A stretch of DNA of 64,000 nt, from assembly GCA_036488875.1 (NCBI GenBank), contig DASXGW010000007.1, forward strand, positions 124,001-188,000, given 5' to 3'. A program made the position numbers and the translations under genes. The notes beneath the pieces are model-generated. The model did no database searches, had not been told where the DNA came from, and worked only from the letters and a program-made list of their open reading frames with translations. Positions 2,601 to 27,377 of the stretch are shown here, one piece after another (the stretch's first letter is position 1; every line of letters starts with the position of its first letter). The DNA comes from Candidatus Baltobacteraceae bacterium. Lineage in GTDB: Bacteria; Vulcanimicrobiota; Vulcanimicrobiia; Vulcanimicrobiales; Vulcanimicrobiaceae.

Positions 2601-5600
2601 TTGGTCGGCCAAACGCTCCGCGGAATTGGTCTCGGCTTACTTCTCCTCGGCGGCTTGGGGCTGATCGCCCCGAGCTTGCCGGCGCATGCCCAAATTCTGG
2701 CACCCTTGGCCGCCATCGGTCAGGCGGTCCAGCGGATCGCTCAGGTCGATCAGAGCGCGCCGGAGGAGTCGCCCACCCCCATCCCGAGTCCGACGCCTAC
2801 CCCGACCCTGGAATCGGTCCGCGGCGGACCGGTTCGCTTCAGCTTGGTCGGTGGCCTGACGGCGGGCACCCGGTACCAAAGCTCGACCACGGGGGGCGGC
2901 GGCGTGCTCTTCCCAGGCCCGAGCCCCTCTCCGTCGGCGACGCCGTTCGGTCTCCAAGGCGCGACGACCGACGCCGCGACCCAGTCGCTTTCGAATGCTT
3001 CGATGCTGGCCGAGGTCTCGCGCCGCACGGCTCTGAGCTCGACCGACGTCAAGGTTCCGCTCGGTTTGGGAAACAATGGGTCGCAGCTCGGCACCGTCCA
3101 AGCGCTCTACTCGACCCCCAAGTACTCGCTCGGCTACGGGGCGCAGCCGGTCAATCTCTTCGGCCAATTGCCGGCGGGCGGCACGCTGCGGGGCCCTTCC
3201 TTAATACTCCCGCTGGCATACGGCGACCAGACGTTCTACGAGGGCGCATCCACCGGCGCGGAGGGCGAGGTGCTCCGGCTCTTCGGCTATCGGCTGAGAG
3301 AAGAACGCGGAAACAGCTACTGGGAGGCCGGGGTTGCCAGCGGCGGCGGCCCGCTGACCGGAGAGGCGACGACGCTCCTTGGGGGCGCGGCGACGTCGTT
3401 CGGTCCGTTATCGGTCATTGGCGAAGCAGCCTGGCAGTCGCGAATCGATCCCGGACCCGACCAAGGTTCGCCCAAAGGCTACGCTGCGGCGTTCCGCGCC
3501 GATGACCAGCTGCCCGACAGCAGCATTTCCCTGTCGATCCGCCATATGCCCGACAGCTTCATTTCCTACGGCGTCGGCAGCGTCGAGCAAGACAACTACT
3601 TCGGCGCAAACTACCAGCTGACTGGACGAAGTTCGCAAGACCTTTTGGTCAACGCGAGCTGGGAGCAGTACGGCGATGCGGCTACGGGGGCTTCATTGCA
3701 GCGTCTCGGGCTGCTCAATTACAACGGACCGTGGATCTTGGGCAGCTACGGCGTCGGATTGCAGGCGCAAGAGCTTACATCGACGACGGCGGCGCCGCAA
3801 TCCGTCGTCGGTGCGCTCCTGCAGAACTCGACGTCCAATCGCTTCATTACGCTCTTCACCTCGATGCAGTTTTTGCGGAATACCGCGGCCGATATCGGCG
3901 TCACCGCTTCGAGCGGCGTAAGCTTCGAACTCGAGCGTCAGCTCGGGTCCTTCAATGCCGGTTTCGGCGGCCAGTTCTTGCGCCAGACGAGCACGGCCGC
4001 TCCGCCGTCGCTGCAGGCGCTGGAATCGCTGAACATCTCGCGTCAATTCGGCAAAATGTCGCTAGGCATCGGCGATGCGTTCGCGCACACGATTAGCGGC
4101 GGTACCCCCGGAAGCGACGCACTTTCGCAGACGCCCAACATCACGGTAGGACGGCAGATATCGCCGGCGTTGTCCGTTTCCGTCAACTTCGGTATTCAGA
4201 CGCTCAAAGACAGGCTCAATCCGTCGGCCGACGGACGTTCGCGCGTTTTCGGAGTGCAGATCAACTCGCCGTTCGCGTTCGGCAACGGTATCGTAAGCGG
4301 TCGCACCGATCCGCGTTTGCCGGCAACGATTATCGGGCGCGTGCAAACCGACTTGACGACGCTCAATCCCTCGCTAGCGGGCTTCGCGACGTCGGGCAGC
4401 ACGAGCGGCGGTGTCGGCAATATTATCGTAACGCTCGACGATCGCTACGTGCAGCGCACCGATCTCACCGGCGGCTTTGAGTTCTCGTTCATTGCGCCCG
4501 GACAGCATCAGCTGCGCGTCGAGACCTCATCGGTTCCGCGTGGATTCACCGTCGACTCGCCGGTGCAGACCCTGAACTTGCAGGGCGGTCAGACCGCGCA
4601 AGTGCTCTTCCAACTCGGAAACTACGGCGGCATTCTGGGTCACGTTTACGGCCTCGATCCGGGGGGCAGCGAAGTGCCGCTCTCCAACGTCATGCTGCGC
4701 GTCGATCAAGGGGCGTACTCCCAGACCGACACGACCGGCGCGTACGGCTTCGGCCATCTCGGCGCGGGAACGCACGAGGTCACGATCGTCGCAAGCACGG
4801 TTCCCGCGTTCGTCACGTTCGATACCGCCGCAGAGAAACGCACGGTGGGCGTGCAGAACGGTCAATACACGACCGCGGACTTCCACGCCGAACCGCTCGG
4901 CTCGATCTCCGGTAAGATCGTCTATTCCTCCGACATGCAGCCGCTGGAAGGCGGCGTTCTCAACGCCTACGTCGTTGCCGAGCCCGGCGAGCACGCGGCC
5001 ATCGACGAGGACGACGGAACCTTCGTCATCGACAACCTGCCGCCGGGGCAGTACACCGTTTCGGTCGACCCCGAGACGCTGGACACCGGGCTGGGTTCGC
5101 AGCCGGAGTCGATCGCCGTCGAGCTCAGCCCGCGCGAACACTACCAGGGCGTGGTCTTTTCGGTCGGGCGATTCGAAAAGAAGGTCGTCTTCTCGTTCCT
5201 TGGCAGCGGCGCGAAGGCGCCGAGCCTGGCCGGGCAGACGCTGCGGCTGAGCGAGAGCCGCTTGCCGCCCTACGGTACGGCCGACGTCATCGTTCCGGCC
5301 GGGGAGGCCGCCAAGGGCGTTTCGGTGACGGTGTTCGGTCGAACGAGGTCGCTGAAGTACGACAAGCGGGTCAATGGGTGGACGGGCCAAGTCGACGTGC
5401 CGCAAGGCCAAGCGGCGGGGCAGTATTCCGTGACGGCCGCGGTGGAGGAGGGGAGCGCTCCGGCACCCGCCACGCTCACCGTGGATCCGAAGATGCCGAT
5501 CGCCATCGTCCAGCTCAGCCCCCCTACCGCGGCGCAGGGCGACTACGTCCGGGTCCGGGCCCGCTTCCTCGTGGACGCAAAGCAAGGCGACAAGATCCAG

Positions 5601-5738
5601 TGGGAGGACGGTCAGACGACTATCTTAGGCAAGCCGCTGAGCGGGCGCGTCTTTACATTTACCAAGGTCCTTTCTTTACGCCCCCTACACGGTGTCTTAT
5701 TAACCGCGGCAGGCAGGCTACCGATAGAACTCTTGTAA
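2601..5738 (+). CDS. Large exported beta-rich protein, candidate usher-like outer-membrane platform
   Basis: The 1045-residue product starts at TTG 2601, eight bases after AAGGAAAGG. A signal peptide (GLGLLLLGGLGLIAPSLPAHA) is followed by a Pro/Thr-rich linker (SPTPIPSPTPTPT, about residues 56-70). Residues 75-590 alternate polar and hydrophobic residues in a way typical of an outer-membrane barrel. Three carboxypeptidase-regulatory-like sandwiches follow at about 605-670 (IIVTLDDRYVQRTDLTGGFE), 674-765 and 769-855, then Ig-like strands to the C-terminus. CS1/CFA-type and archaic ushers combine a barrel with small sandwich domains, and the neighbours here are a chaperone candidate and subunit-like proteins, so an usher role is inferred. 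I do not recognise a PapC/FimD family motif. Confidence 0.6.
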   Translation: MVGQTLRGIGLGLLLLGGLGLIAPSLPAHAQILAPLAAIGQAVQRIAQVDQSAPEESPTPIPSPTPTPTLESVRGGPVRFSLVGGLTAGTRYQSSTTGGGGVLFPGPSPSPSATPFGLQGATTDAATQSLSNASMLAEVSRRTALSSTDVKVPLGLGNNGSQLGTVQALYSTPKYSLGYGAQPVNLFGQLPAGGTLRGPSLILPLAYGDQTFYEGASTGAEGEVLRLFGYRLREERGNSYWEAGVASGGGPLTGEATTLLGGAATSFGPLSVIGEAAWQSRIDPGPDQGSPKGYAAAFRADDQLPDSSISLSIRHMPDSFISYGVGSVEQDNYFGANYQLTGRSSQDLLVNASWEQYGDAATGASLQRLGLLNYNGPWILGSYGVGLQAQELTSTTAAPQSVVGALLQNSTSNRFITLFTSMQFLRNTAADIGVTASSGVSFELERQLGSFNAGFGGQFLRQTSTAAPPSLQALESLNISRQFGKMSLGIGDAFAHTISGGTPGSDALSQTPNITVGRQISPALSVSVNFGIQTLKDRLNPSADGRSRVFGVQINSPFAFGNGIVSGRTDPRLPATIIGRVQTDLTTLNPSLAGFATSGSTSGGVGNIIVTLDDRYVQRTDLTGGFEFSFIAPGQHQLRVETSSVPRGFTVDSPVQTLNLQGGQTAQVLFQLGNYGGILGHVYGLDPGGSEVPLSNVMLRVDQGAYSQTDTTGAYGFGHLGAGTHEVTIVASTVPAFVTFDTAAEKRTVGVQNGQYTTADFHAEPLGSISGKIVYSSDMQPLEGGVLNAYVVAEPGEHAAIDEDDGTFVIDNLPPGQYTVSVDPETLDTGLGSQPESIAVELSPREHYQGVVFSVGRFEKKVVFSFLGSGAKAPSLAGQTLRLSESRLPPYGTADVIVPAGEAAKGVSVTVFGRTRSLKYDKRVNGWTGQVDVPQGQAAGQYSVTAAVEEGSAPAPATLTVDPKMPIAIVQLSPPTAAQGDYVRVRARFLVDAKQGDKIQWEDGQTTILGKPLSGRVFTFTKVLSLRPLHGVLLTAAGRLPIELL

Positions 5739-5762
5739 ACTCGCTTTCCCACTTAGCCAAGG

Positions 5763-6524
5763 ATGGCGTCTTCGCGCATGGTGAAAAGGAAAATGAACGG
5801 AAAACGACTTCTTATTCTGGCGGCTTTTGGAGCACTGGCAACTGTTGCTATGCCCTCCGCCTTCGCCTCGACGGTAACCAACACGATCACCGTCAAGTGG
5901 AACACCCAAGCGATCTCTACGTTGCTGGTGACCACGAACTACAGTGCTACCGGAGCTCAACAGCTCACCGCGCCGGCAATCATCACGAATGCCAACGGTG
6001 GAACCGGAGCGTGCACCGCGGCCGGTGCCGGCTCCGAAGTCCTACAGGTTGCGAACTTCGGCGCCGTTACGCCGGACGGAACCACGAACTACACCGACTG
6101 TCTCTATAAGAACGGTGCCAACGCCTTCGTCGCGTCGTCGGACTCCAGCGGCTATGCGTTAGCCGTTGCCGGTACGACCCCGGCTTCGGGCGTTGCCAAC
6201 CCGTACAAGCTGTGTCTGCTTCCCAATCCGGCGGCCGGCTGGACCGCGCCGGCGGCCGGCGGCGCCGTTGCAGTCGCACAGACGGTTCGCGTCGCTGCTC
6301 CGGCAGTCACGAACGCAACGGCTTGCAACGCCGTCGAATCCAACAAAGGCATCGACCTGGCGAACCTCGGCGGAACCGGCGGTACGATCCAACCTGCTAC
6401 TTCGGGCGCAAATGCGACCACGTCCGGTGCCAACTACGGTGGCGACATCCTGTTGGGAATCCCGGCGCTCGCGTCGTCCGGTGCGCAGGCTGTAACGGTT
6501 ACGTACACGCTGACGCTCAACTGA
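5763..6524 (+). CDS. Small exported subunit-like protein A (pilin-like)
   Basis: The product has up to 253 residues. In-frame ATG codons at 5763, 5778 and 5793 are all possible; the last gives the cleanest signal peptide (MNGKRLLILAAFGALATVAM) but its AAGGA is only two bases away. After cleavage comes TNTITVKWNTQA, which is nearly repeated in the protein encoded at 7464-8183 (TAPITVKWSTQA). The body is rich in Ala, Gly, Thr and Asn, with a few Cys residues, and the protein ends in the amphipathic strand VTVTYTLTLN. It lies 24 bases after the usher-like gene and before a chaperone candidate, as a major subunit would. Similarity to spore-coat-U/Csu pilins is structural inference only. Confidence 0.6.
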   Translation: MASSRMVKRKMNGKRLLILAAFGALATVAMPSAFASTVTNTITVKWNTQAISTLLVTTNYSATGAQQLTAPAIITNANGGTGACTAAGAGSEVLQVANFGAVTPDGTTNYTDCLYKNGANAFVASSDSSGYALAVAGTTPASGVANPYKLCLLPNPAAGWTAPAAGGAVAVAQTVRVAAPAVTNATACNAVESNKGIDLANLGGTGGTIQPATSGANATTSGANYGGDILLGIPALASSGAQAVTVTYTLTLN

Positions 6525-6537
6525 GGTTGGCGATCAT

Positions 6538-6560
6538 CCCCGCACCGCTTCGCCGCGGGG
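6538..6560 (+). terminator. GC hairpin after the subunit A gene
   Basis: CCCCGC (6538-6543) and GCGGGG (6555-6560) form a 6-bp stem with an 11-base loop, 13 bases after the stop codon of the subunit gene. Only a short TTT follows, so it may attenuate transcription or protect the 3' end of the upstream message more than end it. Such a hairpin would raise subunit A over the chaperone candidate downstream. Confidence 0.4.
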
Positions 6561-6594
6561 CGGTTTGAAAGGCTCCGCGGCGAAGAGGCACGGC

Positions 6595-7392
6595 ATGATG
6601 CAAACGAGACGAGGCATTCTTGCCGTCATCGGATTGGCGTTGCTTCTAGGGGCGCCGCGTCCGGCAAATACTGCCGGACTCGGATTGGAAGTGACGCCGG
6701 GTAAGCTCGAGATCTCGGTCCCCAGTGGGGCCACCTACAACATCCCAATCACGGTTCACAACTCGAGTTTTAGTCCGGTGCACGTGCAGGCGTCGATGGT
6801 CGACTTCAACGTCGGAATCGACGGAGCGTATCAGTTCCAGAAGGTGGGAACGCGCTCGAACTCGCTGATGAAGTACGCTGCGATCCGTCCGCGCGAATTC
6901 GACGTCGGACCGGGTGAATCGCAGCAAGTACAGCTCACGGTGCAGTTGCCTCAAGCTCCTAACCTTGCCGGCGAATATGCGGGAATCGTCTTCTTTCAGA
7001 CTCGTCCGCCGCGTGCTAAAGGCTTGGCTCTCGCGTTCTCGGTTCGCGTCGCTTCGAAAATCTACGAAACGATTCCGGGAACGGTCAAGCTCGACGGCGC
7101 GATCGCCAAGATGACGGCGGCAGCGAGTCCGAGAGGCGAGACGTATCGCGTCGTCTTTAAGAATAACGGCAACACGCATCTGTACCTGCGGGGACAGTTG
7201 ACGGTGCAAAAGGGAGGCGCGGTCGTCGATCAGCTGCCGATCGCAACCGGCGAGTTAGTCGAGCGCGGCGGCGAGCGGCTGCTGGAGGCCGTCGGGAAAC
7301 GTTTGGATCCGGGATCGTATCAAGCGATTGCGACGATCGATTACGGCGGCAAAACGGAAACCGGCGGAGAGATTGCGTTCGACGTCCGTTAG
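6595..7392 (+). CDS. Periplasmic Ig-like protein, pilus-chaperone candidate
   Basis: From ATG 6595, with GAAGAGG seven bases upstream, the product has 265 residues. The signal peptide is RRGILAVIGLALLLGAPRP with cleavage near ANTAG. The mature N-terminus (LEVTPGKLEISVPSGATYNI) followed by PITVHNSS resembles the first Ig domain of pilus-assembly chaperones and of DUF916-like surface proteins. The middle strand FDVGPGESQQVQLTVQLP and a second sandwich from about residue 170 (YRVVFKNNGNTHLYLRGQLT) complete a two-domain architecture. The length fits periplasmic chaperones (about 230-260). Its position between subunit-like genes supports the role. The conserved Arg/Lys pair of classical FGS/FGL chaperones is not obvious. 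Confidence 0.6.
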   Translation: MMQTRRGILAVIGLALLLGAPRPANTAGLGLEVTPGKLEISVPSGATYNIPITVHNSSFSPVHVQASMVDFNVGIDGAYQFQKVGTRSNSLMKYAAIRPREFDVGPGESQQVQLTVQLPQAPNLAGEYAGIVFFQTRPPRAKGLALAFSVRVASKIYETIPGTVKLDGAIAKMTAAASPRGETYRVVFKNNGNTHLYLRGQLTVQKGGAVVDQLPIATGELVERGGERLLEAVGKRLDPGSYQAIATIDYGGKTETGGEIAFDVR

Positions 7393-7463
7393 GGCGGACG
7401 ACTAACGCAAAACGGAAGTGCATGATAGGGAGGTAACCGTACCGGAACGCCCTCCGGACGGTC

Positions 7464-8183
7464 TTGGGAGTGTTGAACGGACGCAAAACTTACGACGGGA
7501 AAAGCTGGATGCTGGTGGGAGCGCTCTTTGCGCTGGCACTAGCGTTAACGGCAAACCCGAACGCGCTCGCCGCCAATCCCACCGCCCCAATTACGGTCAA
7601 GTGGAGCACGCAGGCGCTGGTCAGCATCAAGCTCTTCGTGAACTACGCAACGGGCTACGGTCAGATTCCGGCCACGATCGGCGCGCAGCCGGCGCCCACA
7701 CACGGACCCGATGCTAACTGTCCCAATGGAACGCCGAGTGCCACCTGCTCGGTCGACTTCGGTAACGTCGTGACCGGCAAAAACTATGTCTATAGGTACG
7801 CAGTGCACCTCAACGTGGTCAGCACGTCGGCAACCGGTGTAAACGTTTACGGCGAGGGTGCCGCGGATTTCACGAACACCAGCGGCGGAACGATTCCGAT
7901 TTCGTCTGCAGTGTACTGGCTGAACTCGACGAGTGGGTCGCCGGCCGACGCGAACACCGGCTTTTCGGCAGCGACGCCGTTCCTGCTTTCGAGCGGCATG
8001 GTAACCGGCGGCGGGAGCCCGAACACCGTGCCGTCCATTGCGTACACCACGTATCCCGCGCCGATTTCGTCGAGCAACGTGCTAGACTCCGATTTCTACT
8101 ACGACTATCAACTGAAGGTGCCGTTTACGGCCACCTCGGGTCTATACTACGTTTGGATAGTCTACACGGTGTTAGCGAAATGA
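7464..8183 (+). CDS. Small exported subunit-like protein B, paralogue of subunit A
   Basis: The product has up to 239 residues. Possible starts are TTG 7464, TTG 7473 and ATG 7509; all include the hydrophobic segment LVGALFALALALTANPNALA ending in Ala-Ala. The mature start TAPITVKWSTQALVSIKLF repeats the ITVKW(N/S)TQA motif of the protein encoded at 5763-6524. CSVDFGNVVTGKNYVYRYAV recalls the FGxV strand of spore-coat-U-like pilins, although the similarity is weak. The final strand LYYVWIVYTVLAK matches the ends of its neighbours. Its stop overlaps the next gene's ATG (ATGA at 8180), so the two are translationally coupled. Confidence 0.6.
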   Translation: MGVLNGRKTYDGKSWMLVGALFALALALTANPNALAANPTAPITVKWSTQALVSIKLFVNYATGYGQIPATIGAQPAPTHGPDANCPNGTPSATCSVDFGNVVTGKNYVYRYAVHLNVVSTSATGVNVYGEGAADFTNTSGGTIPISSAVYWLNSTSGSPADANTGFSAATPFLLSSGMVTGGGSPNTVPSIAYTTYPAPISSSNVLDSDFYYDYQLKVPFTATSGLYYVWIVYTVLAK

Positions 8184-8881
8184 TACGGCTGCGAGCGGCG
8201 TTTATAACGTTTGGTTTTTTAGCGCTGATTCCCATCATCGTAAGCGCCGCGTTTCAAACGCAGCGGGCGCAAATCGAAATAACCATCACGATCAACGTAA
8301 CGCCGAATCCGCTCGGCTACGCGACGCCGGGTGCGGCGAGCGATACGTCGGGTCGCGTCATCGCGGCGAAGTTAAGGCTGAATCGCAGCGAGGCGGCGTC
8401 CGAATTTCACGCCGAAAGCCTGAGCTTTGCGAGTAACGTCGTCGCTCAGAATCAAGGCGCCGTCAAGGTGGAGGCGTCGGTTTCTCCAAATCCGTTGGGA
8501 ACGCTGCTCTACAGTAATCAAACCGGCGTCATCATCAGTCAAGAGGCCGGCACGACCGTGGTGTATCCATGTGAATACACGGTCACGGCTTCGACCACGC
8601 AAGCCGCATGGACGCTCGACCACGGCTTATTCACGAATTTCATTCTCGGCGGCGGCAGCGCGTCGTTTGCAGGCGGCAACGTTGCCAATAACACCCATCT
8701 CGCGACCCCGAGGCCGACCGCTACGCCGTTCGTCGTGTACTCTGACGACGGCGGTACGTGGACCGCTGCCGCGACGGGAGCGCACGCCGAAACGTTCTGC
8801 GTCGATCTCACCGTTACGATTCCCATTGCGACGTCCGGAGGAACGTATAGCTCGAATGCAGTCTATACGTTGTTCTACTAA
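8180..8881 (+). CDS. Small exported protein C, probable minor subunit
   Basis: ATG 8180 overlaps the stop of the preceding gene by four bases and is preferred over the upstream GTG/TTG possibilities. The 233-residue product has a hydrophobic N-terminus (LRAAFITFGFLALIPIIVSA) that may be a signal peptide or an anchor, then a Thr/Ile-rich strand (QIEITITINVTPNPLGYATP). The Pro-rich segment TPRPTATPF sits near residue 175. The last residues, TYSSNAVYTLFY, form an amphipathic strand ending in aromatics. I find no known family. Its stop TAA shares one base with the start of the next gene. Confidence 0.55.
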   Translation: MIRLRAAFITFGFLALIPIIVSAAFQTQRAQIEITITINVTPNPLGYATPGAASDTSGRVIAAKLRLNRSEAASEFHAESLSFASNVVAQNQGAVKVEASVSPNPLGTLLYSNQTGVIISQEAGTTVVYPCEYTVTASTTQAAWTLDHGLFTNFILGGGSASFAGGNVANNTHLATPRPTATPFVVYSDDGGTWTAAATGAHAETFCVDLTVTIPIATSGGTYSSNAVYTLFY

Positions 8882-11800
8882 TGTTGAATTCGTTCGGCCG
8901 TAGCGCTTGGATCGGCACCGCCTTCGCGTTTTTAGCGGCGGCGGCAACGGCACTCGGGCAAATGCACCCGGGCGGCAACGGTCATGCTCCGCCCGCCGCG
9001 CATCCAACGATGAGCGCGCCGCAACCGGTCGTGCATCCGATCGCGAGCATGCCGGGCGTGCCGGGTCCGGTTTCGCCAAACGACAATCGCTACGTGCACG
9101 GTGTGGCCCCCGGTTCGAAAGTGCCGTTGTCGCGGCTTCCGAAGCTGCCGCCTCGGACGATGATGAACACGCTCCTCCCGCGCCAAACGCTGCACGGCCG
9201 CCATTACCGCGTCCTCGGCGCTGCAGTCTTCAACCCCCAGCGGTTGGGTTCGGGAGCCAGCGCAGCGCGCAAGTTGCATCCTAACGCCGCCAACGGTTCG
9301 ACGATTGAGTTTTGGGCGACGGCCGCTTCCTGCACGACCGCCGGAACCGTTGGTGCGCTCTACAACGTCGGCTGTGCGTTAGAGTGGCAGCCGGTGAATC
9401 TCGACAACTTCAGCAACACCGACAGCTATCAAGAGTATTACATTCCGTCCAACTCGACGACGGCGACCGCGATCGGTCCCAATAGCGCGCCGGCCGGCGC
9501 GGATAACGGCAGCATGCCGCCGCAGACGACGACGTTGAGCAGCACGGGCACGTGGACCTTCGGCGTCTACGACTCGACGGCGCAAGAATGGGTCGCCGTC
9601 AGCTACGCCAACGCCGGCAATACCTTCAGCATCGCCGTCTACCAAGATTCGTTCCATTTGAACCAGTCGTATCAGTTCGACGTGAGCTCGAGTTCGGCGG
9701 CGTACATTTATCTGACCGGACTGGCGCCGGCCGACTACTACGTCGTCTACGTAACGCGTACGGGCGATACGCCGAATTGCGTGATGATCGCGCCCAACAC
9801 GTCGCCGACACCGATTCCCGGACCGACGCCCACCGGCGGAGCTTCGAACCTGATCTGCAACCCGGCAAACTCCACCGGCCAGCAAGCGCCGAACAACCAG
9901 TTGTCGGTAACGTGGGCGCTCAACAGCACGTTGGAAGCCGGCACGTATTCCATTGCCGTCTATGACTGCAGCACGCAGTGTAACAGCGGTGGGAGCGGTT
10001 CGCTGCTCGGACAAGTGCAAGTTTCGCTAACCGGCTCCGGCGGCGTGACGATCATTACCAAACCCGACGGTACCAACGCGAACCCGTCCCCAAATCCGCA
10101 GCCCGCAGCAACGGCCAATACGACCGTGGACTGGGACGGCACGACGGATCAATCCGACTCCGGTATCACGGGAAGCGCGGGTGCCAGCAAGCCGTTGACG
10201 AGCGGGCACTCCTACACGTGGACCTTGACCGACCCGCAAGGCCAGGTCATCGCCCTCGCTACGCCGGCGGCATTAGGCTCCGGAGTGACGACGGCGAGCC
10301 AAACGTTCCAGTTTGCCTCGGCCAACCTTGGCTTCCAACAGGCCACGACGCCGGCGCTGCCGGGCCAGTATCCCAGCAACATCTGGGCGATGCAGCTCTA
10401 CGATCGGACGTCGAAGTCGGTCGTTGCTTCCCAAGCGTTCAAGATGCTGGGATATTCGACGTCGACACAGTTCATATTCCCCTCCGGTTCGGGAACCACG
10501 AGCACCTCGCTCACCATTCCAAACGCGCTCGGTACCGTTGCCGACTTGCGCTTTACCAATACCAGCAGCACCAGTTATCCGAACGCCGGCGATAGCCTCA
10601 GCGAAATCGAGTTCTCTACCGGTCCAAACTTCAACGACGACCATAGCGGCCACGGCGTCATCGCGCAGCTCAACGGCTGCGGCACGGCGAACTGCAGCGG
10701 CACGGCCACCGATTCCAACGGCAACACCTGGGACGTCACTTCGGCGTGCAGCTCGTTGACCAGTAATAACGCCGAATGCAATATTCTGCTGACGCCGGCG
10801 GTAGCGGGCACGACGCTGACGCCGGGCGCTTACGTAACCGTGGTCGGAATAAGCTGGACCAACACGAACGGCGGCAGCGGCTGCGGCAGCGCCTGCGAAG
10901 GCATCACGTCGGAGCTTCCCGTCAACGGCCTCACCTGGTCCAGTACCACGGGTACGGTGGCGTGGTCACCCGTCTACTTCGCGATCAGCCTGACGGACGC
11001 CGGAACGGTCAGCTTTGCGGTGGTCGGTTCGATCGATTGCCCGGCCAACTCGCGCAACCTCGCGACACCGCCGCCGTTTGTGGGAACGCACTGTTATCGG
11101 GATCGCTTCAATCACGCGGACTATAATAACAACTCACCGTTCACGGTAACCAATAGCAACGAGTCGATTTGGGCGTTCACCGTAACCAATGACGCGCTAT
11201 CCAGCAACAACATCAGCGAGCTGTTGATCCAGCAACCGCCGCTGCTCGTGTCGCAAGGCGGTATCGCGGCGGTCGACTCCTTGAGCAGCGCGAACTGGCA
11301 GCTGCTGACGACTTGTCCGACCGGCTTCGGCTCGCAATATGCCTGTCTCCAGGCGAAGGGTTCCCACAAAATCGCGGCCGGCGGCAACGAAACGGTTTAC
11401 GTCGACGCGAACTGGCCAAACCAAAGCTTCACGTATACCGACTTAGCGGTACTGGCATCGCAGACGCCGACGCCGAGCGACACGTTCGCCTTGACGGCGG
11501 CCGCGGGATCGAACACGACCGTCGACGGTGCGTACACGACGCTCGACAACCTTTCCATCGGCGCGTATTCCCTCAATAGCGCGTTGATGTCGGCGTACTT
11601 CTCGCCGACCTCCGTGAGCGTCAGTCAGGCGTCCACACCGCTAGGCATCGTCGTCTCGAATACGTCGACGGCGCAGGATCCCAATCCCGATTCGATCGAC
11701 GCGTTGATTATCGAACAGTCGACCAATAAGAACTGGACGATCACGGGAACGCCGACCGTCAGCACTTCGGGCTGGAGTAATATCGGGACGAACAATCCTA

Positions 11801-13086
11801 GCGGCAATACCTTGGATTATTGGTTCGGACTGTGCGGTGGACAGTACGTTACAGCCGACGGTCCGCCGGCCTCGACGCCGCTGACGACGGTACAAACCGC
11901 GCTGCCGGAATGCACGCTGCCCGAATCCAACTCGCTCGCGCCGGGTCAGTCGATGACGATCAATATGAACGTCCTCAACTTCGGCAGCCCCAGCAGTCCG
12001 ATCACGTTCACGCTGTACGCGCACGGCGCCAACGGTAACGGTTGGTCGGCTGCCAAGACGTTTAGCCTGCTGACGGCTTCCGAGACCGCAAGTATCGCGT
12101 TCTCCAAGGTCAACAGCACGACGATTTCCAGCCCCACCGTTCCGTCGGTCGGTGCCGGTCCAAACACGTACACGTACGCGATCAAGAACACGAGCAATAG
12201 TCAGAACATCAGCACGATCGTGATTACGCTGCCCGGTACGGATACGAGCGGCAACAACGCGACCGACTCGAGCGGGACCACCTGGACGCTGGTCGGGCCG
12301 ATCAGTTCGACGATTACGGCCAGCCCCGCCGGCGTCAACTGTACGCCGAACACGAGTCCGGCGGCGACGTTCAGCGCGACGACCGCCGGCGCGAACGGAC
12401 AAATTACGATCAACTGTACGAGCTTTACGCCGGGCACCACTCTGAGCGTGCAGTTCCAAGCCAACAACCCGCAGTCCCAGAGCGACAGCTATCTCTTCCC
12501 GGCGACTATCGACGGCAGCACGACCGGCGCCGGCGCGCTCTATCTCGGATCGAACCAAGTCTCGGTAGCGTTCTCGCTCGGCCTATCGCTCTCGGTCGAC
12601 CCGTCGAACCCCACGAACGGCAAGGCGCATCCGGTTCCGGCGTGTTCGCCGGCGCAGTGTGCCTTCTCGGGCACGACTCTGGATTTCGGTAACATTGCCA
12701 ACAGCAGTGCGGTGACTGGTACCGACGTCGTTGCGGCGAGCGTCATCTACACCGGCGCCACGTCGTCAGGTCATACGTGGTCGCTCTCCGTTTCGTCGAG
12801 CGTCAATCCGACGTGCACCGGCGGTACGTGTACGACGGCCAAGGAAATGTCCGTGGACGTCGACTCCACGGCATCGGGCAGCAACGCTAACGGCTGCGGG
12901 GCGATGACCTACGATCAAACGACGTTAGCTGCCGTACCCACTGTCGGAACGCTCTCACTGGCCACCGGTCCGGAGACGCAGTGCGGCTTCTCGTACGACG
13001 TGATCGATAACTACAAGATCAACGTCGGCACGGAGTCGATCACCGGCACGGTATCCACGGTAACCTACACGCTGATTGCCAACTAG
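8881..13086 (+). CDS. Giant exported multidomain adhesin-like protein
   Basis: The 1401-residue protein begins at ATG 8881 in a TAATG junction. A signal peptide is followed by a Pro/His-rich stretch and then beta-sandwich-like modules. Repeated units opening with a (T/K)N(T/D)(S/A) turn and a hydrophobic strand occur near residues 557 (FTNTSSTSYPN), 768 (TNDALSSNNISELLI), 923 (VSNTSTAQDPN) and 1101 (IKNTSNSQNISTIVITLPG). The last domain (1231-1401) contains LDFGNIANS and several Cys, and ends VSTVTYTLIAN, like the small subunits. Size, position and modular build suggest a tip adhesin or cell-wall-distal fibre. No catalytic motif is visible. The four-base overlap with the convergent gene is a shared CTAG. 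Confidence 0.6.
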   Translation: MLNSFGRSAWIGTAFAFLAAAATALGQMHPGGNGHAPPAAHPTMSAPQPVVHPIASMPGVPGPVSPNDNRYVHGVAPGSKVPLSRLPKLPPRTMMNTLLPRQTLHGRHYRVLGAAVFNPQRLGSGASAARKLHPNAANGSTIEFWATAASCTTAGTVGALYNVGCALEWQPVNLDNFSNTDSYQEYYIPSNSTTATAIGPNSAPAGADNGSMPPQTTTLSSTGTWTFGVYDSTAQEWVAVSYANAGNTFSIAVYQDSFHLNQSYQFDVSSSSAAYIYLTGLAPADYYVVYVTRTGDTPNCVMIAPNTSPTPIPGPTPTGGASNLICNPANSTGQQAPNNQLSVTWALNSTLEAGTYSIAVYDCSTQCNSGGSGSLLGQVQVSLTGSGGVTIITKPDGTNANPSPNPQPAATANTTVDWDGTTDQSDSGITGSAGASKPLTSGHSYTWTLTDPQGQVIALATPAALGSGVTTASQTFQFASANLGFQQATTPALPGQYPSNIWAMQLYDRTSKSVVASQAFKMLGYSTSTQFIFPSGSGTTSTSLTIPNALGTVADLRFTNTSSTSYPNAGDSLSEIEFSTGPNFNDDHSGHGVIAQLNGCGTANCSGTATDSNGNTWDVTSACSSLTSNNAECNILLTPAVAGTTLTPGAYVTVVGISWTNTNGGSGCGSACEGITSELPVNGLTWSSTTGTVAWSPVYFAISLTDAGTVSFAVVGSIDCPANSRNLATPPPFVGTHCYRDRFNHADYNNNSPFTVTNSNESIWAFTVTNDALSSNNISELLIQQPPLLVSQGGIAAVDSLSSANWQLLTTCPTGFGSQYACLQAKGSHKIAAGGNETVYVDANWPNQSFTYTDLAVLASQTPTPSDTFALTAAAGSNTTVDGAYTTLDNLSIGAYSLNSALMSAYFSPTSVSVSQASTPLGIVVSNTSTAQDPNPDSIDALIIEQSTNKNWTITGTPTVSTSGWSNIGTNNPSGNTLDYWFGLCGGQYVTADGPPASTPLTTVQTALPECTLPESNSLAPGQSMTINMNVLNFGSPSSPITFTLYAHGANGNGWSAAKTFSLLTASETASIAFSKVNSTTISSPTVPSVGAGPNTYTYAIKNTSNSQNISTIVITLPGTDTSGNNATDSSGTTWTLVGPISSTITASPAGVNCTPNTSPAATFSATTAGANGQITINCTSFTPGTTLSVQFQANNPQSQSDSYLFPATIDGSTTGAGALYLGSNQVSVAFSLGLSLSVDPSNPTNGKAHPVPACSPAQCAFSGTTLDFGNIANSSAVTGTDVVAASVIYTGATSSGHTWSLSVSSSVNPTCTGGTCTTAKEMSVDVDSTASGSNANGCGAMTYDQTTLAAVPTVGTLSLATGPETQCGFSYDVIDNYKINVGTESITGTVSTVTYTLIAN

Positions 13087-22767: not shown

Positions 22768-23818
22768 TCAGATCGGCGCGCGCCGGCAGCCTGGGGCGCT
22801 GCTGCGTGTTGCCGGGCGGTCCGATGCCGAAATCGTCGTAATCGAAGCCGATGACCTGAACGTTGAGCAGATCGCCCTTGCAGAACGTCTTCGCACCGCC
22901 CTTACCGTAGTTTCCGAGATCGTCCGGAACGCGCAGCGTACCGCTCTTATCGAAGCGCAGGGTCGCAAAACCCAATCCGGTGTTGCACGGATTCGACGAC
23001 GGCGCCGGCGGGACGTTCGCATCGATAATGTTCACGAGCGCTTGGTTCACGCCGCGCGGAAATCGAAGCGTCACGACCGCACCACCGCGATGGTCGGAAT
23101 GCGCGGTGACGTTCGTAAAGCTCGGGAGCAGCGCCGGTCGAAACTCCGCGCTCGCCGTCTGCGTCGTCGCGCGGCCGTTTTGCGAGTACGTGACGGTTAG
23201 CGTGTACTTTCCGGCTGGGGGCAGCTTCTTGAAAGCGATCATATAGAAGCCTTCCGGCGAGCTCGACGGAATTTGCACGAGCGAGGAAAGCGCGCTTGCG
23301 GCCAGCGTCGTTGCCGGATAGGCCGGCGGTCCGCCGTAGAACGGCTCGGTGCCGCCGCCGAAGGTCAGTTTCGCCGCGACGTCGGCGAACTGCGGTTGAA
23401 ACGGATAGAAGTTGATGCCGGCGCAGCTGCATCCCGGCGGTCCGATGCCGAAACCGTCGGCACCCGCTAAGACGCGCGTTTGCGTCGGCCCGACTTGAAA
23501 TTGATTCGACGCCGCACCGATCGGAATCGCGGCTTTGCCGCTACCCGGATCCTTGGAGTGCTTGGGACCTTGCAATCCGAGCGGCCCGGTTAACGTCGCA
23601 GTCGTAATCGGAATCGCCGTGTATCCCTGCGCGCCGCGAAATGTTTCCAGCAGGTTTACGCCTTGATTGAGTCCGCTGAGGTTGGCCGTGCCGAGCGATA
23701 GCTGCAGCGCGACGCTGCCGCTGCCGGGGGGCGGTCCGCTCGTAATCGGCGGCGTCGTGTTCGCCTGTCCCGTGGTGCAGGCGGTCAGCGCAAGCGCGAG
23801 CAGCGCGCCGCGTTTCAT
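22739..23818 (-). CDS. Lipoprotein coupled to a TonB-dependent receptor
   Basis: The 359-residue product starts at ATG 23818, sharing a base with the receptor stop (TGATG). The signal peptide KRGALLALALTACTTG has a lipobox ending LTAC. The mature protein is Pro/Gly-rich with probable sandwich domains; FGIGPPG appears twice (near residues 123 and 342), with Cys pairs nearby. A strand-rich stretch LPPAGKYTLTVTYSQNGRAT lies near 208. I recognise no family. Translational coupling suggests it works with the receptor, for example as a surface-exposed partner, which is inference. Its end overlaps the convergent fusion gene. Confidence 0.65.
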   Translation of the reverse strand: MKRGALLALALTACTTGQANTTPPITSGPPPGSGSVALQLSLGTANLSGLNQGVNLLETFRGAQGYTAIPITTATLTGPLGLQGPKHSKDPGSGKAAIPIGAASNQFQVGPTQTRVLAGADGFGIGPPGCSCAGINFYPFQPQFADVAAKLTFGGGTEPFYGGPPAYPATTLAASALSSLVQIPSSSPEGFYMIAFKKLPPAGKYTLTVTYSQNGRATTQTASAEFRPALLPSFTNVTAHSDHRGGAVVTLRFPRGVNQALVNIIDANVPPAPSSNPCNTGLGFATLRFDKSGTLRVPDDLGNYGKGGAKTFCKGDLLNVQVIGFDYDDFGIGPPGNTQQRPRLPARADLTYSTVIVVE

Positions 23819-26800
23819 CACAACGTAAACCTCGTGAAGAGCGTGTACTGACGCCCAAAGCCCGACGGAATCGTGAAGTACGGTCCGGCCGGATACGCCT
23901 TGACCGCTCCTTGTAAACCGAGCACGGGATTTGCGCCGGAGCCCGGGCCGAACGCACCGTAGCCGTTATTGACGTAGCCGGGATTGTAGTACGGATAGTT
24001 GGCGTAGTTGCCCAGAACGTTCTGCAGTTCGAATCCGACGGTGACGCGCCCGTGCTCGAAGCTGCGCGCGACGAGCAGGTTGGCAAACAGCGCGCGATGC
24101 GTGAGCGCACCGTTGAGCGTCGCGCTGCAGCCGCCGCCGGTCGCGCCGATAATGTGCGGATGCTGCGGCGTTCCGGGCGACTGCGGATCGACGTAGTAAC
24201 AGAACTGGCTGCCGAATCCGCCGTAGAGATTGGTATTCGGGACGAACATCGGCACGCCGTTGACGTAGACCGGATCCATCGCCCAAATACCGATCGGATA
24301 GCCGTTCTCGAAACGGAAGATCGGGTCGACCTCCCAGTCCTGGTGATGGTAGTCGAGCGTCAGCGCGCCGGTCAGCGGCGACAAGTACGGCGGATGAAAC
24401 AGCGCGCCCGTGGCGAGCAGCGCCGGCTGCACCGACGGGCGAAACGCGTTGCTCGTCACGTAGTTGACGAACTGGTTGATGTACGTGGCGTTGAGCTGCA
24501 CCGAGAGCCCTTGCGACACTTGGCGCGAAAGCTGAAACTCCAGGCCGGCGGTTTGCGCGGCGCCTTGGTTGGTCACCGAGATCGTTCCCGGAATGACCGC
24601 GCCTTGCCCGGTAACGGTAACCTGCTGGCTGTTGACGATCACGCCGTAGTCGCGCCGGTCGAAAAACGTGAGCTTCAATCCCACGTCGTGCGCGAATGCG
24701 TGCTCGAACGAGAAGTCGTAGCTGTCGGATTGCTGCGGCCGGGAGAAGCTGACCGGATTGACGCCGAAACCCTGCCACCACGCGTTGACGAGCTCGTCGT
24801 AGTAGTTCGGACACGCTGCGTGAAAGCCGGCGCTGGGGCCGCCGCAAATCGAAAGCGTGGCGGGATACTGCTTGTATCCCAGCGGCGGCGTGTACTCGGA
24901 AACGAGTTGAAAGAGCGGCGCGAACGTCGCCGCGTGTCCGTAACCGGCCCGCAGCACCGTGTCGCGTTTGCGCCCGATGGTCCACGTCGCGTAGGCGCGC
25001 GGATCGAGCGCGTTGGCCTCGTACGTGCCGGCCGCGGTGGGCACCGTTTGGCGATCGTAGCGCACGCCGGCCTGCAGCATCAAACGATCGGTGGCGTTCC
25101 AGTTGTCGGTTGCGTAGAACGACGTCCGGTACATGTCGTTGTCGATCGTCTCGTTAAACGCCGGATAGCGCTTGCCGTAGAAGACGCCGGGCGTTCCGGC
25201 GGAGCCTGAGGTCGCGGCCAAGTACGGATCGGCGGGAAGAAAGTCGGCGATCGTCGGCCCGGCGAAGACGAACGTGGGCGAGACGACGTATCCAAGCAAG
25301 TTGGCGCGCGAGAAGCGCGAGTCGACGCCGGCCGAGAGCAAATGGTTGTTGCCGATGACTTGCTGGAGGTCGACGGCGTACCCCGTGTTCTGCGTCGCAC
25401 GCGTGACGTCGTTGTCGGAAAACCCGATCGACGGTAATCCGTAGCCGAAAAGCACGTTGTTGGGATCGTTGAAATCGTCGACGACGTCGTTCTGCGTGCG
25501 GTAGACGCGGGCGTTGAGATAGGTGCGGGAGCTCAAGTTGCGCGAGTACGCGATCTTCATCAGATCGTACGTCGTCACTTCGTTGGGAACCGCGCCGATC
25601 GGCTGATTGGGCGCGCTCTGTCCGGGAAAGAACGGCATCAGCCCGAGCGTGTCTTTTTGCGACAGCGAGGAGTTGGTGGCGTTCAGGTTGAGAATTGGAA
25701 TGCCGAACTTTTGCGCTTCGACGCCCAGCAGCTGCGGCGTCGCAGCGTAGATTTGCTGGTACGCGGCCTGACCGGTGTAAAACGGGTAGGTCTGCGGATC
25801 GATGCCGTAACCGCCGGTTTCTTTGTTTGCGCCCCACACGCCCCAGAGTTGTATCGTATTGGCATCGTCGCGGCCGAAGTGAATGAGCCCGTTGACGACC
25901 GTGTCGTTGGTGGTCTCGAACTGTACTTGTCCGACGGTGTCGGGGAAGGACGTCGACGATCCGCCGTAGGTGTTGCCGTACGGCGGCGCCGTGACGCCGC
26001 CGAAGTCGCGTCCGTAGCGGCCGCTCACAAACAGCGAGTAACGTTTGTTCGGAGTCGCCGTACCGAACTCGAAGTCGAGATTGTGCTCGAACGCCGGTCC
26101 GCCGCCTTCGAACTGCACGAAACCGCTCGACGGATAGCTCCCCGCCTTGGTGACGATGTTGACGAATCCCGAACCCGAGCCGCCCTTGCTTGCGTCGCCG
26201 GGGCCGGCCGTTAGGTCGACCGCCTGCGAGCCGTTGAGAATGGTGTTGTTGATGAAGTAGCCGGTAATCGGATCGGTGGCGTCGATGCCGTCGAGCTGAT
26301 AGCCGATTTGGTTCGCGAGACCGCCGCGTATCGCGGCGAAACCTCCGACCAATCCGCTGCCCGACGAGCCGCCGACGAGCGTTGAACCCGGGAGCGTGTT
26401 GAGCAGCTGCGCTTCGTTATCGAACGCCGGTAAGCCGCCGAGTTGCGATTGTTCGTGCGGCGTGACCACGTATACGTCGACGGGCTGATGCGCTTGCACC
26501 GGAAACGATGCGGAATGCGTCGTCACGCGCGCGATCTCGCGCAGCGTCTCGCGCTCAAGCGCGACGTCGATGGTCAGGTTCGAATCTTGCGTGATCGTGA
26601 CTCCGGCTTCGTGGAACGCGCGATAGCCTTTGACGTTCGCGTCGAGCGCGTACGTGTCGGGAATGATGCCGACGATCGAGTAGAACCCGTGCGCGTCGGT
26701 AACGGCCTTGTAGCTTCCCGAGGGTGCGGTGATCGTCACCGCGACACCCGCCAACGGCCTGCGGTCGACCGAGTCGAAGGTAAGCCCGTGCATTGACCCG

Positions 26801-26892
26801 ACCGTCGCAGCGGGGACTCGCGCCATCATTGCGGCGGCAATTAGCAATGTCACCCTGAGCGTAGCGCCGTAGGCGCGAAGTCGAAGGGTCAT
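23818..26892 (-). CDS. TonB-dependent receptor with carboxypeptidase-regulatory-like domain
   Basis: The 1024-residue protein begins at ATG 26892, in an ATGA overlap with the alkyltransferase-like stop. The signal peptide is encoded partly by the dispersed repeat. Residues 35-120 form a carboxypeptidase-regulatory-like sandwich (MHGLTFDSVDRRPLAGVAVT). The plug follows at about 140-270 (GFAAIRGGLANQIGYQLDGI), and the remainder is an outer-membrane barrel ending in YTLFTRFTL. This Oar/SusC-like layout is used to import large or complex substrates through the outer membrane. A canonical TonB box is not evident. The substrate is unknown; the downstream lipoprotein is the likely partner. Confidence 0.85.
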   Translation of the reverse strand: MTLRLRAYGATLRVTLLIAAAMMARVPAATVGSMHGLTFDSVDRRPLAGVAVTITAPSGSYKAVTDAHGFYSIVGIIPDTYALDANVKGYRAFHEAGVTITQDSNLTIDVALERETLREIARVTTHSASFPVQAHQPVDVYVVTPHEQSQLGGLPAFDNEAQLLNTLPGSTLVGGSSGSGLVGGFAAIRGGLANQIGYQLDGIDATDPITGYFINNTILNGSQAVDLTAGPGDASKGGSGSGFVNIVTKAGSYPSSGFVQFEGGGPAFEHNLDFEFGTATPNKRYSLFVSGRYGRDFGGVTAPPYGNTYGGSSTSFPDTVGQVQFETTNDTVVNGLIHFGRDDANTIQLWGVWGANKETGGYGIDPQTYPFYTGQAAYQQIYAATPQLLGVEAQKFGIPILNLNATNSSLSQKDTLGLMPFFPGQSAPNQPIGAVPNEVTTYDLMKIAYSRNLSSRTYLNARVYRTQNDVVDDFNDPNNVLFGYGLPSIGFSDNDVTRATQNTGYAVDLQQVIGNNHLLSAGVDSRFSRANLLGYVVSPTFVFAGPTIADFLPADPYLAATSGSAGTPGVFYGKRYPAFNETIDNDMYRTSFYATDNWNATDRLMLQAGVRYDRQTVPTAAGTYEANALDPRAYATWTIGRKRDTVLRAGYGHAATFAPLFQLVSEYTPPLGYKQYPATLSICGGPSAGFHAACPNYYDELVNAWWQGFGVNPVSFSRPQQSDSYDFSFEHAFAHDVGLKLTFFDRRDYGVIVNSQQVTVTGQGAVIPGTISVTNQGAAQTAGLEFQLSRQVSQGLSVQLNATYINQFVNYVTSNAFRPSVQPALLATGALFHPPYLSPLTGALTLDYHHQDWEVDPIFRFENGYPIGIWAMDPVYVNGVPMFVPNTNLYGGFGSQFCYYVDPQSPGTPQHPHIIGATGGGCSATLNGALTHRALFANLLVARSFEHGRVTVGFELQNVLGNYANYPYYNPGYVNNGYGAFGPGSGANPVLGLQGAVKAYPAGPYFTIPSGFGRQYTLFTRFTL
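26849..26891 (+). repeat. Dispersed repeat, copy 3, inside a signal-peptide region
   Basis: The copy has the conserved ends (GTCACCCTGAGCG and GCGAAGTCGAAGGGT). Its centre is a perfect GCGCC-GTA-GGCGC hairpin (26864-26876), so stem pairing is kept although the bases differ from copy 1. Read leftward it supplies the first fifteen codons of the TonB-dependent receptor, including part of the ATG. Confidence 0.8.
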
Positions 26893-27377
26893 ACCGGCAG
26901 TTTGCCGCCGGCGAGCGCTCGCCCCTTGCGCTCGAAGGCAACCAGCGCTAGGCGGGCGCCGCCCGGCGTCGCCCCCTTGACCCGGCCGTCGGCTCCCACC
27001 ACCCGGTGTGCCGGCACGAAGAGCGCGATGGGCGTGCGCCCCATTGCCATTGCGACGCCGCGGTGTGCCAGCGGCCGGCCGATCGCGCGCGCCACGTCGG
27101 CGTACGAAACGAACTCGCCGAACGAAAGCCCCGCGACGCATTCCCACACGGCTTGCGAAAACGGCGTTCCGTCAAACTTCAACGGAAGATCGAAGCGGCG
27201 CAACCGCCGCGCGAAGTAGGCGCGCACTTGCGACGCCGCTTCGGCCAGCAGCGGATCTGCCGTGCGCCGCGCGGCCGGGGGGCGCTTACTTCGCACGAAT
27301 CGCGCGGCAACGATGGCGCCTTGCTCGCTTTCTATCTCGAGAGCGAACCGTAAAGGTGTGAGTATCGTTAAACCCAT
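26889..27377 (-). CDS. Alkyltransferase-like (ATL) protein of the MGMT/Ogt family, catalytic Cys replaced
   Basis: The 162-residue product aligns along the O6-alkylguanine alkyltransferase family: the helix-turn-helix region FGEFVSYADVARAIGRPLAH is near 87 and the active-site loop reads LFVPAHRVVGADG near 118. Active enzymes have PCHR; here GCA encodes Ala in place of the Cys. Cys-less ATL proteins (PWHR in E. coli) bind alkylated guanine and hand the lesion to nucleotide-excision repair, so a lesion-binding role is more likely than direct reversal. GKLPV is the last segment before TGA, which overlaps the receptor ATG. That link to an outer-membrane receptor is odd. Confidence 0.85.
   Translation of the reverse strand: MGLTILTPLRFALEIESEQGAIVAARFVRSKRPPAARRTADPLLAEAASQVRAYFARRLRRFDLPLKFDGTPFSQAVWECVAGLSFGEFVSYADVARAIGRPLAHRGVAMAMGRTPIALFVPAHRVVGADGRVKGATPGGARLALVAFERKGRALAGGKLPV

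Follow-up and report, generated by a model that had tools for sequence, protein, structure and literature searches.

A six-gene cluster in a Candidatus Baltobacteraceae genome that probably encodes a divergent chaperone-usher-type pathway

The six-gene cluster and its recurrence

In a window of 64,000 nucleotides from Candidatus Baltobacteraceae bacterium, an uncultured member of the Eremiobacterota (the whole stretch of DNA analysed; assembly GCA_036488875.1, contig DASXGW010000007.1, positions 124,001 to 188,000), calling of open reading frames (ORFs) located six co-directional genes, P1 to P6, at positions 2601-13086 of the + strand. The cluster probably encodes a divergent chaperone-usher-type pathway for a surface fibre. 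This reading draws on the remote homology and predicted folds of P3, the putative periplasmic chaperone, and P1, the putative outer-membrane platform. The features of the cluster are as follows.

2601-5738, + strand: P1, platform (usher-like) protein of 1045 residues, from the ORF, the AlphaFold2 barrel, Foldseek and hhalign against canonical ushers
2832-4280, + strand: predicted outer-membrane barrel of P1, residues 78-560, from the AlphaFold2 model and VIA-align
4386-5735, + strand: predicted periplasmic tail of P1, residues 596-1045, with five sandwich domains (D1-D5)
5793-6524, + strand: P2, putative small subunit A, from hhalign to P4
6595-7392, + strand: P3, putative two-domain immunoglobulin (Ig) periplasmic chaperone, 265 residues from the start conserved among relatives
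7464-8183, + strand: P4, putative small subunit B, from the AlphaFold2 model and Foldseek list
8180-8881, + strand: P5, the third of the small exported proteins and perhaps a minor subunit
8881-13086, + strand: P6, giant multi-domain protein of 1401 residues, candidate tip adhesin
12670-13083, + strand: C-terminal subunit-like segment of P6, from hhalign to the P2 and P4 families

An earlier note, made from this sequence without database searches, had listed six co-directional ORFs encoding exported proteins, and all were found where it placed them apart from the start of P2, which we set at 5793 rather than 5763 because relatives share that start. The overlaps it described (ATGA at P4/P5, TAATG at P5/P6) and the common ITVKW(N/S)TQA start of P2 and P4 were both present, and each of the six proteins opens with a signal-peptide-like segment as read by eye. 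Scans for promoters and terminators of the cluster gave nothing clearly above chance. A flagellin gene (1016-2461, - strand) lies divergently beside P1, as it does in nearly all related loci; a regulatory or functional link between it and the cluster is possible.

Relatives of P3 were found in 43 of the 103 genomes of the order, and the cluster recurs in 18 loci of the order, fetched around clear P3 relatives, as well as in about 30 named Eremiobacterota contigs. The exact order seen in the window, P1-P2-P3-P4-P5-P6, was present in 12 of the 18 loci, and five had the order P1-P2-P3-P6-P4/P2-P5. The last (L044, G093:C11) was rearranged: P2-like and P3-like genes are present twice each, P6 follows them and P1 stands at the end. 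The named contigs agreed in gene order where they were long enough. Full-length P1 was present in about 40 genomes, all within the two families that make up the order; outside the order the phylum showed partial P1 matches only, mostly to the tail. The other proteins of the phylum that carry P1-tail fragments were set aside, as they include long, unrelated-looking surface proteins (L124). The one same-genus genome at hand (G041, 90% completeness) gave no match to P1 or P3, and the cluster may therefore be accessory. The six genes are real and are conserved more than expected by chance. NCBIfam and PHROGs returned nothing useful for the six proteins, and a search of the available papers found no description of such a cluster in Eremiobacterota.

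Similarities of the six proteins to chaperones, ushers and pilins

When profiles were compared, P3 matched a set of ten canonical chaperones from its phylum with an hhalign value of 96.5% (E=8.8e-10, 205 columns) and a score of 68, compared to a maximum of about 23 for shuffled profiles. Relatives of P3 in Gemmatimonadota matched it over the full length (hhalign E=1.8e-22); one of them matches Pfam PapD_N above the cut-off (34.5 bits), and the profile of these relatives finds CupB2 (E=1.2e-4). P3 itself had no direct Pfam PapD_N match. The proline invariant across the superfamily is Pro59 in CsuC (PMC4654587). P99 of P3 is invariant and shares its alignment column with the proline that never varies in the canonical chaperones, and its spacing suggests that it is the equivalent of CsuC Pro59. 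K155 is invariant as well and, with the Gemmatimonadota relatives as a bridge, falls on PapD K112 in the alignment; K37 is also invariant, with an uncertain register to PapD R8. In the G1 region, hydrophobic residues alternate at positions 146, 148 and 152. These comparisons support the assignment of P3 to the PapD-like chaperone superfamily as a remote but significant relative, and the earlier suggestion of a chaperone here was upheld by remote homology and fold, more strongly than a reading of the sequence could show.

P1 was compared with a reference profile of 14 canonical ushers of the phylum. The match (hhalign E=1.4e-11) was carried by the tail, which alone gave E=4.8e-11, and the score was 109 compared to a maximum of 24 for shuffled profiles. 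Within the tail, D1 resembles usher C-terminal domain 1 (CTD1), D2 and D3 resemble usher C-terminal domain 2 (CTD2), and D4-D5 are common to the platforms of Deinococcus. D1 matched usher CTD1 at 94% and D3 matched usher CTD2 at 94.5%, and a control profile built from 24 unrelated CarboxypepD_reg domains encoded in this genome gave 7% and 83%, respectively. Since generic domains match CTD2 but not CTD1, the CTD1 match is the specific part of the likeness, and the comparison as a whole supports a relation of the P1 tail to the usher C-terminal domains. The genome contains >30 CarboxypepD_reg domains, and a TonB-dependent-receptor-like protein with one at its N-terminus is encoded elsewhere in the window (23818-27147, - strand).

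The AlphaFold2 model of P1 (28 sequences; predicted local distance difference test (pLDDT) 77, predicted template modelling score (pTM) 0.52) placed at residues 78-560 a barrel with about 23 long strands and some short ones, followed by sandwich domains, which we divide into five. Foldseek of this model returned FimD first (3rfz, E=6.8e-15), and ushers made up most of the top 13. In VIA-align, the barrel gave Z 16.9 with FimD (rmsd, root-mean-square deviation, 5.3; 370 aligned) and Z 16.4 with PapC (rmsd 5.7, 373 aligned). Profile searches of PDB sequences with P1 retrieved no relevant chain, and P1 had no match to Pfam Usher (PF00577), which the canonical usher of the same genome does match. 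A conserved 50-residue segment lies within the barrel region (157-208); as a speculation, it could form a small constriction. Remote homology and fold upheld the earlier assignment of P1 as the platform. The claim that no member shows classical PapC/PapD motifs held as far as direct Pfam usher or PapD matches are concerned; by profile-profile comparison, P3 and the P1 tail are nevertheless related to those families.

P2 and P4 matched each other with hhalign 98.2% (E=5e-14), which supports one subunit family. Both families have a conserved, alternating N-terminal [IV]x[VIL]xW segment that is hydrophobic and ends in Trp or Tyr; the alternating positions are columns 34/36/38 in P2 and 45/47 in P4. 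In concept this segment recalls the EcpA donor strand, which has Trp11 at its centre (PMC4654587). The AlphaFold2 model of P4 was modest (pLDDT 70) and left residues 34-52, the first mature segment, outside the strands, and its Foldseek list was rich in chaperone-usher pilins (CfaB, FimG, FimA, Csu). The idea of an incomplete Ig fold completed by a donor strand is compatible with this model. P5 showed only weak similarity to P4 by hhalign. The C-terminal stretch of P6 matched the P2 family at 87.9% and the P4 family at 74.4%, which is what a tip protein containing a subunit domain should show. No relevant chain came up when PDB sequences were searched with the P2, P4 and P5 profiles.

Related clusters were found in other phyla. 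On Deinococcus plasmids (L159 8902-13536, L160 8848-13472), genes for a subunit-like protein, a chaperone, a small protein and a platform of 1018-1090 residues stand in a row, annotated mostly as hypothetical proteins. The Deinococcus chaperone matched P3 over its full length (hhalign E=4e-25), and the platform tail matched P1 (E=2.5e-15) in a region that includes the D4-D5 module, which itself is unlike generic CarboxypepD_reg domains. In the window as in Deinococcus, small exported proteins are encoded on either side of the chaperone gene. Unlike P1, the Deinococcus platform carries an Ig-like domain at its N-terminus, ahead of the barrel; no giant protein comparable to P6 was seen in these clusters, and their small proteins are unlike P2/P4 in sequence. 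D. psychrotolerans is one of the cultured species with the related chaperone. A distant relative in D. deserti is annotated as a FimB/Mfa2 fimbrial subunit. Five Gemmatimonadota loci (L084, L086, L087, L089, L091) combine a PapD-like chaperone with a barrel-like protein of roughly 950 residues and small exported proteins. This platform has an N-terminal NPCBM_assoc Ig domain and an SdrD_B-like tail, and we do not call it a P1 orthologue because it gave no profile match to ushers and meets P1 only in a CNA-B-type region. The subunits of the Gemmatimonadota and Deinococcus clusters showed no profile similarity to P2/P4. Another genome (G002, L128 3281-7164) may hold one more version of this plan: there, the neighbour of a divergent P3-like chaperone is a barrel-like protein of 877 residues that carries three SdrD_B/CarboxypepD_reg domains.

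Findings that weigh against an usher-type pathway, and rival explanations

Findings on P1, on P3 and on the subunits weigh against the proposed pathway. For P1, the top VIA-align match of the barrel was MtrB (Z 18.2, rmsd 7.3, 420 aligned), which fits it as well as FimD does. The barrel alone is no proof of an usher, because MtrB, FimD and PapC fit about equally. The barrel-to-barrel profile similarity between P1 and ushers was weak (E about 1e-3). Ushers characterised so far possess both an N-terminal domain and a plug (PMC8410936). The P1 barrel model contained no Ig-like plug and no inserted sandwich domain, so that the structural check proposed in the earlier note, a large barrel with plug, gave the large barrel of about 23 long strands and neither plug nor Ig-like insertion. 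Before residue 78, P1 has a signal and a low-confidence proline-rich linker, with no folded N-terminal domain, and its relatives likewise lack this domain. P1 might be a large outer-membrane protein of an ordinary kind, resembling porins or receptors, with common CarboxypepD_reg domains, its likeness to ushers being generic and the cluster making unrelated surface adhesins. The MtrB match, the many CarboxypepD_reg domains of the genome and the weak barrel profile similarity all favour this explanation, which we nevertheless consider very unlikely: the match of D1 is specific for usher CTD1, and a gene of the chaperone superfamily always adjoins P1.

For P3, the direct Pfam neighbour is WxLIP_PGBD rather than PapD_N. 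This family was matched by all 15 aligned P3 members at E<=0.5 (best 2e-7), with the window P3 itself below the Pfam cut-off. Non-classical (archaic or alternative) chaperones have a super-conserved anchor arginine, Arg89 in CsuC (PMC4654587), to which the arginine of the 'TYR' motif in the canonical chaperones would correspond by its spacing. P3 lacks this archaic anchor, having Ala129 in that column, where its relatives have Ala or Ser. The cluster could be read as the diderm equivalent of the WxL system found in Gram-positive bacteria, in which P3 would act like a WxLIP protein and hold P2/P4 and P6 in a non-polymeric surface complex, with P1 only as an anchor. WxLIP has been predicted to supply a strand that completes WxL (PMC10599100), and two WxLIP entries of the PDB, 9i1y and 9i25, one of them with a long WxL bound, came up in the search with the P3 profile (E 0.3) and in the VIA list of P4. 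Against this stand the sub-threshold match of the window P3, the lack of any WxL-domain match in P2/P4/P5/P6 in Pfam and NCBIfam scans, and the lack of a C-terminal membrane helix in P3 by inspection. The large barrel with an usher-like tail is present here and absent from WxL clusters. We regard a WxL-like complex as unlikely.

For the subunits, no Foldseek match of P4 passed E=1e-3 (E>=2e-3), and VIA-align of its model gave Z 8.0 at best, with pilins at about 6. Matches of P2/P4/P5/P6 to SCU subunits reached at most 1.3% in hhalign, and none of the four matched Pfam SCU (PF05229). The VIA list of P4 contained TLP-1a (Z 8.0, 148 aligned, model residues 34-239) and the TasA fibre (Z 5.3). These two entries fit an arrangement in which P2/P4 self-assemble as TasA-like or thread-like fibres, with P1 as an export pore and P3 as a general periplasmic holdase, in the absence of usher-catalysed donor-strand exchange. 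Such self-assembly would not require P3 and the P1 tail to be homologous to chaperones and ushers, nor P1 and P3 to be constantly paired across phyla, and we consider it quite improbable.

A possible pathway and its place among known systems

In the chaperone-usher-type pathway that we favour, P2, P4 and probably P5 and P6 would be exported to the periplasm as subunits. P3 would cap each subunit by lending its G1 strand, with the hydrophobic residues at 146, 148 and 152, while the invariant K155 would hold the subunit C-terminus. As P1 is without an N-terminal docking domain, the chaperone-subunit complexes would dock on the P1 tail. An incoming subunit would then use its [IV]x[VIL]xW segment to displace the strand lent by P3, and the fibre, as it grows, would exit via the P1 barrel, carrying P6 at its tip. 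From these comparisons we infer both fibre formation and contact between chaperone and subunits.

The earlier note had likened the gene order to that of Csu-type pili, which is loosely right. A true Csu-type cluster lies elsewhere in the same genome, next to a contig end (G000:C13:462974-468327; locus L104 3975-9328), and contains two SCU subunits, a PapD_N chaperone, a 766-residue Usher protein and an SCU tip protein. Because P2/P4/P5/P6 are unlike SCU subunits, we take the window cluster to be a separate lineage and not a copy of Csu. With archaic (Csu-type, sigma) pili it shares a chaperone relative that has two Ig domains and the superfamily proline (P99), a large predicted outer-membrane platform with usher-type C-terminal domains, and several small exported subunits with a larger last one. 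Compared with these pili, it lacks SCU subunits, the anchor arginine, the usher N-terminal domain, the plug and Pfam usher or PapD matches, adds the tail domains D3-D5 and the 1401-residue giant, and differs in gene order. The FimD/FimC and PapC/PapD systems have in common with it the best Foldseek match of P1 and the lysine aligned with P3 K155; the sequence relation is remote, and P1 differs in having neither plug nor N-terminal domain. The resemblance to WxL/WxLIP systems lies in the first domain of P3 and in the presence of small and large partner proteins in one cluster, and the WxL domains and P3 membrane helix (by inspection) are missing here, where an outer-membrane barrel is predicted. 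We did not file the cluster as a Csu, classical or WxL member because the defining features of those systems were either not found or left open. Tentatively, and with somewhat less than even confidence, we propose a separate pathway class in Eremiobacterota, Deinococcota and Gemmatimonadota, in which the multi-sandwich tail of the platform, in place of an N-terminal domain, would recruit chaperone-subunit complexes, no Ig plug would be present, and the chaperone would stand between the PapD and WxLIP families.

Known ushers share one plan, with an N-terminal docking domain, a barrel with plug and two C-terminal domains. A relative that apparently lacks the docking domain and the plug would show which parts of an usher are essential, and the superfamily would extend to phyla that have received little study. 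A related cluster is present in Deinococcus strains that are in culture, which makes the idea testable in a tractable organism. The connection of PapD-like chaperones with WxLIP bears on the evolution of strand-complementing chaperones across cell-wall types.

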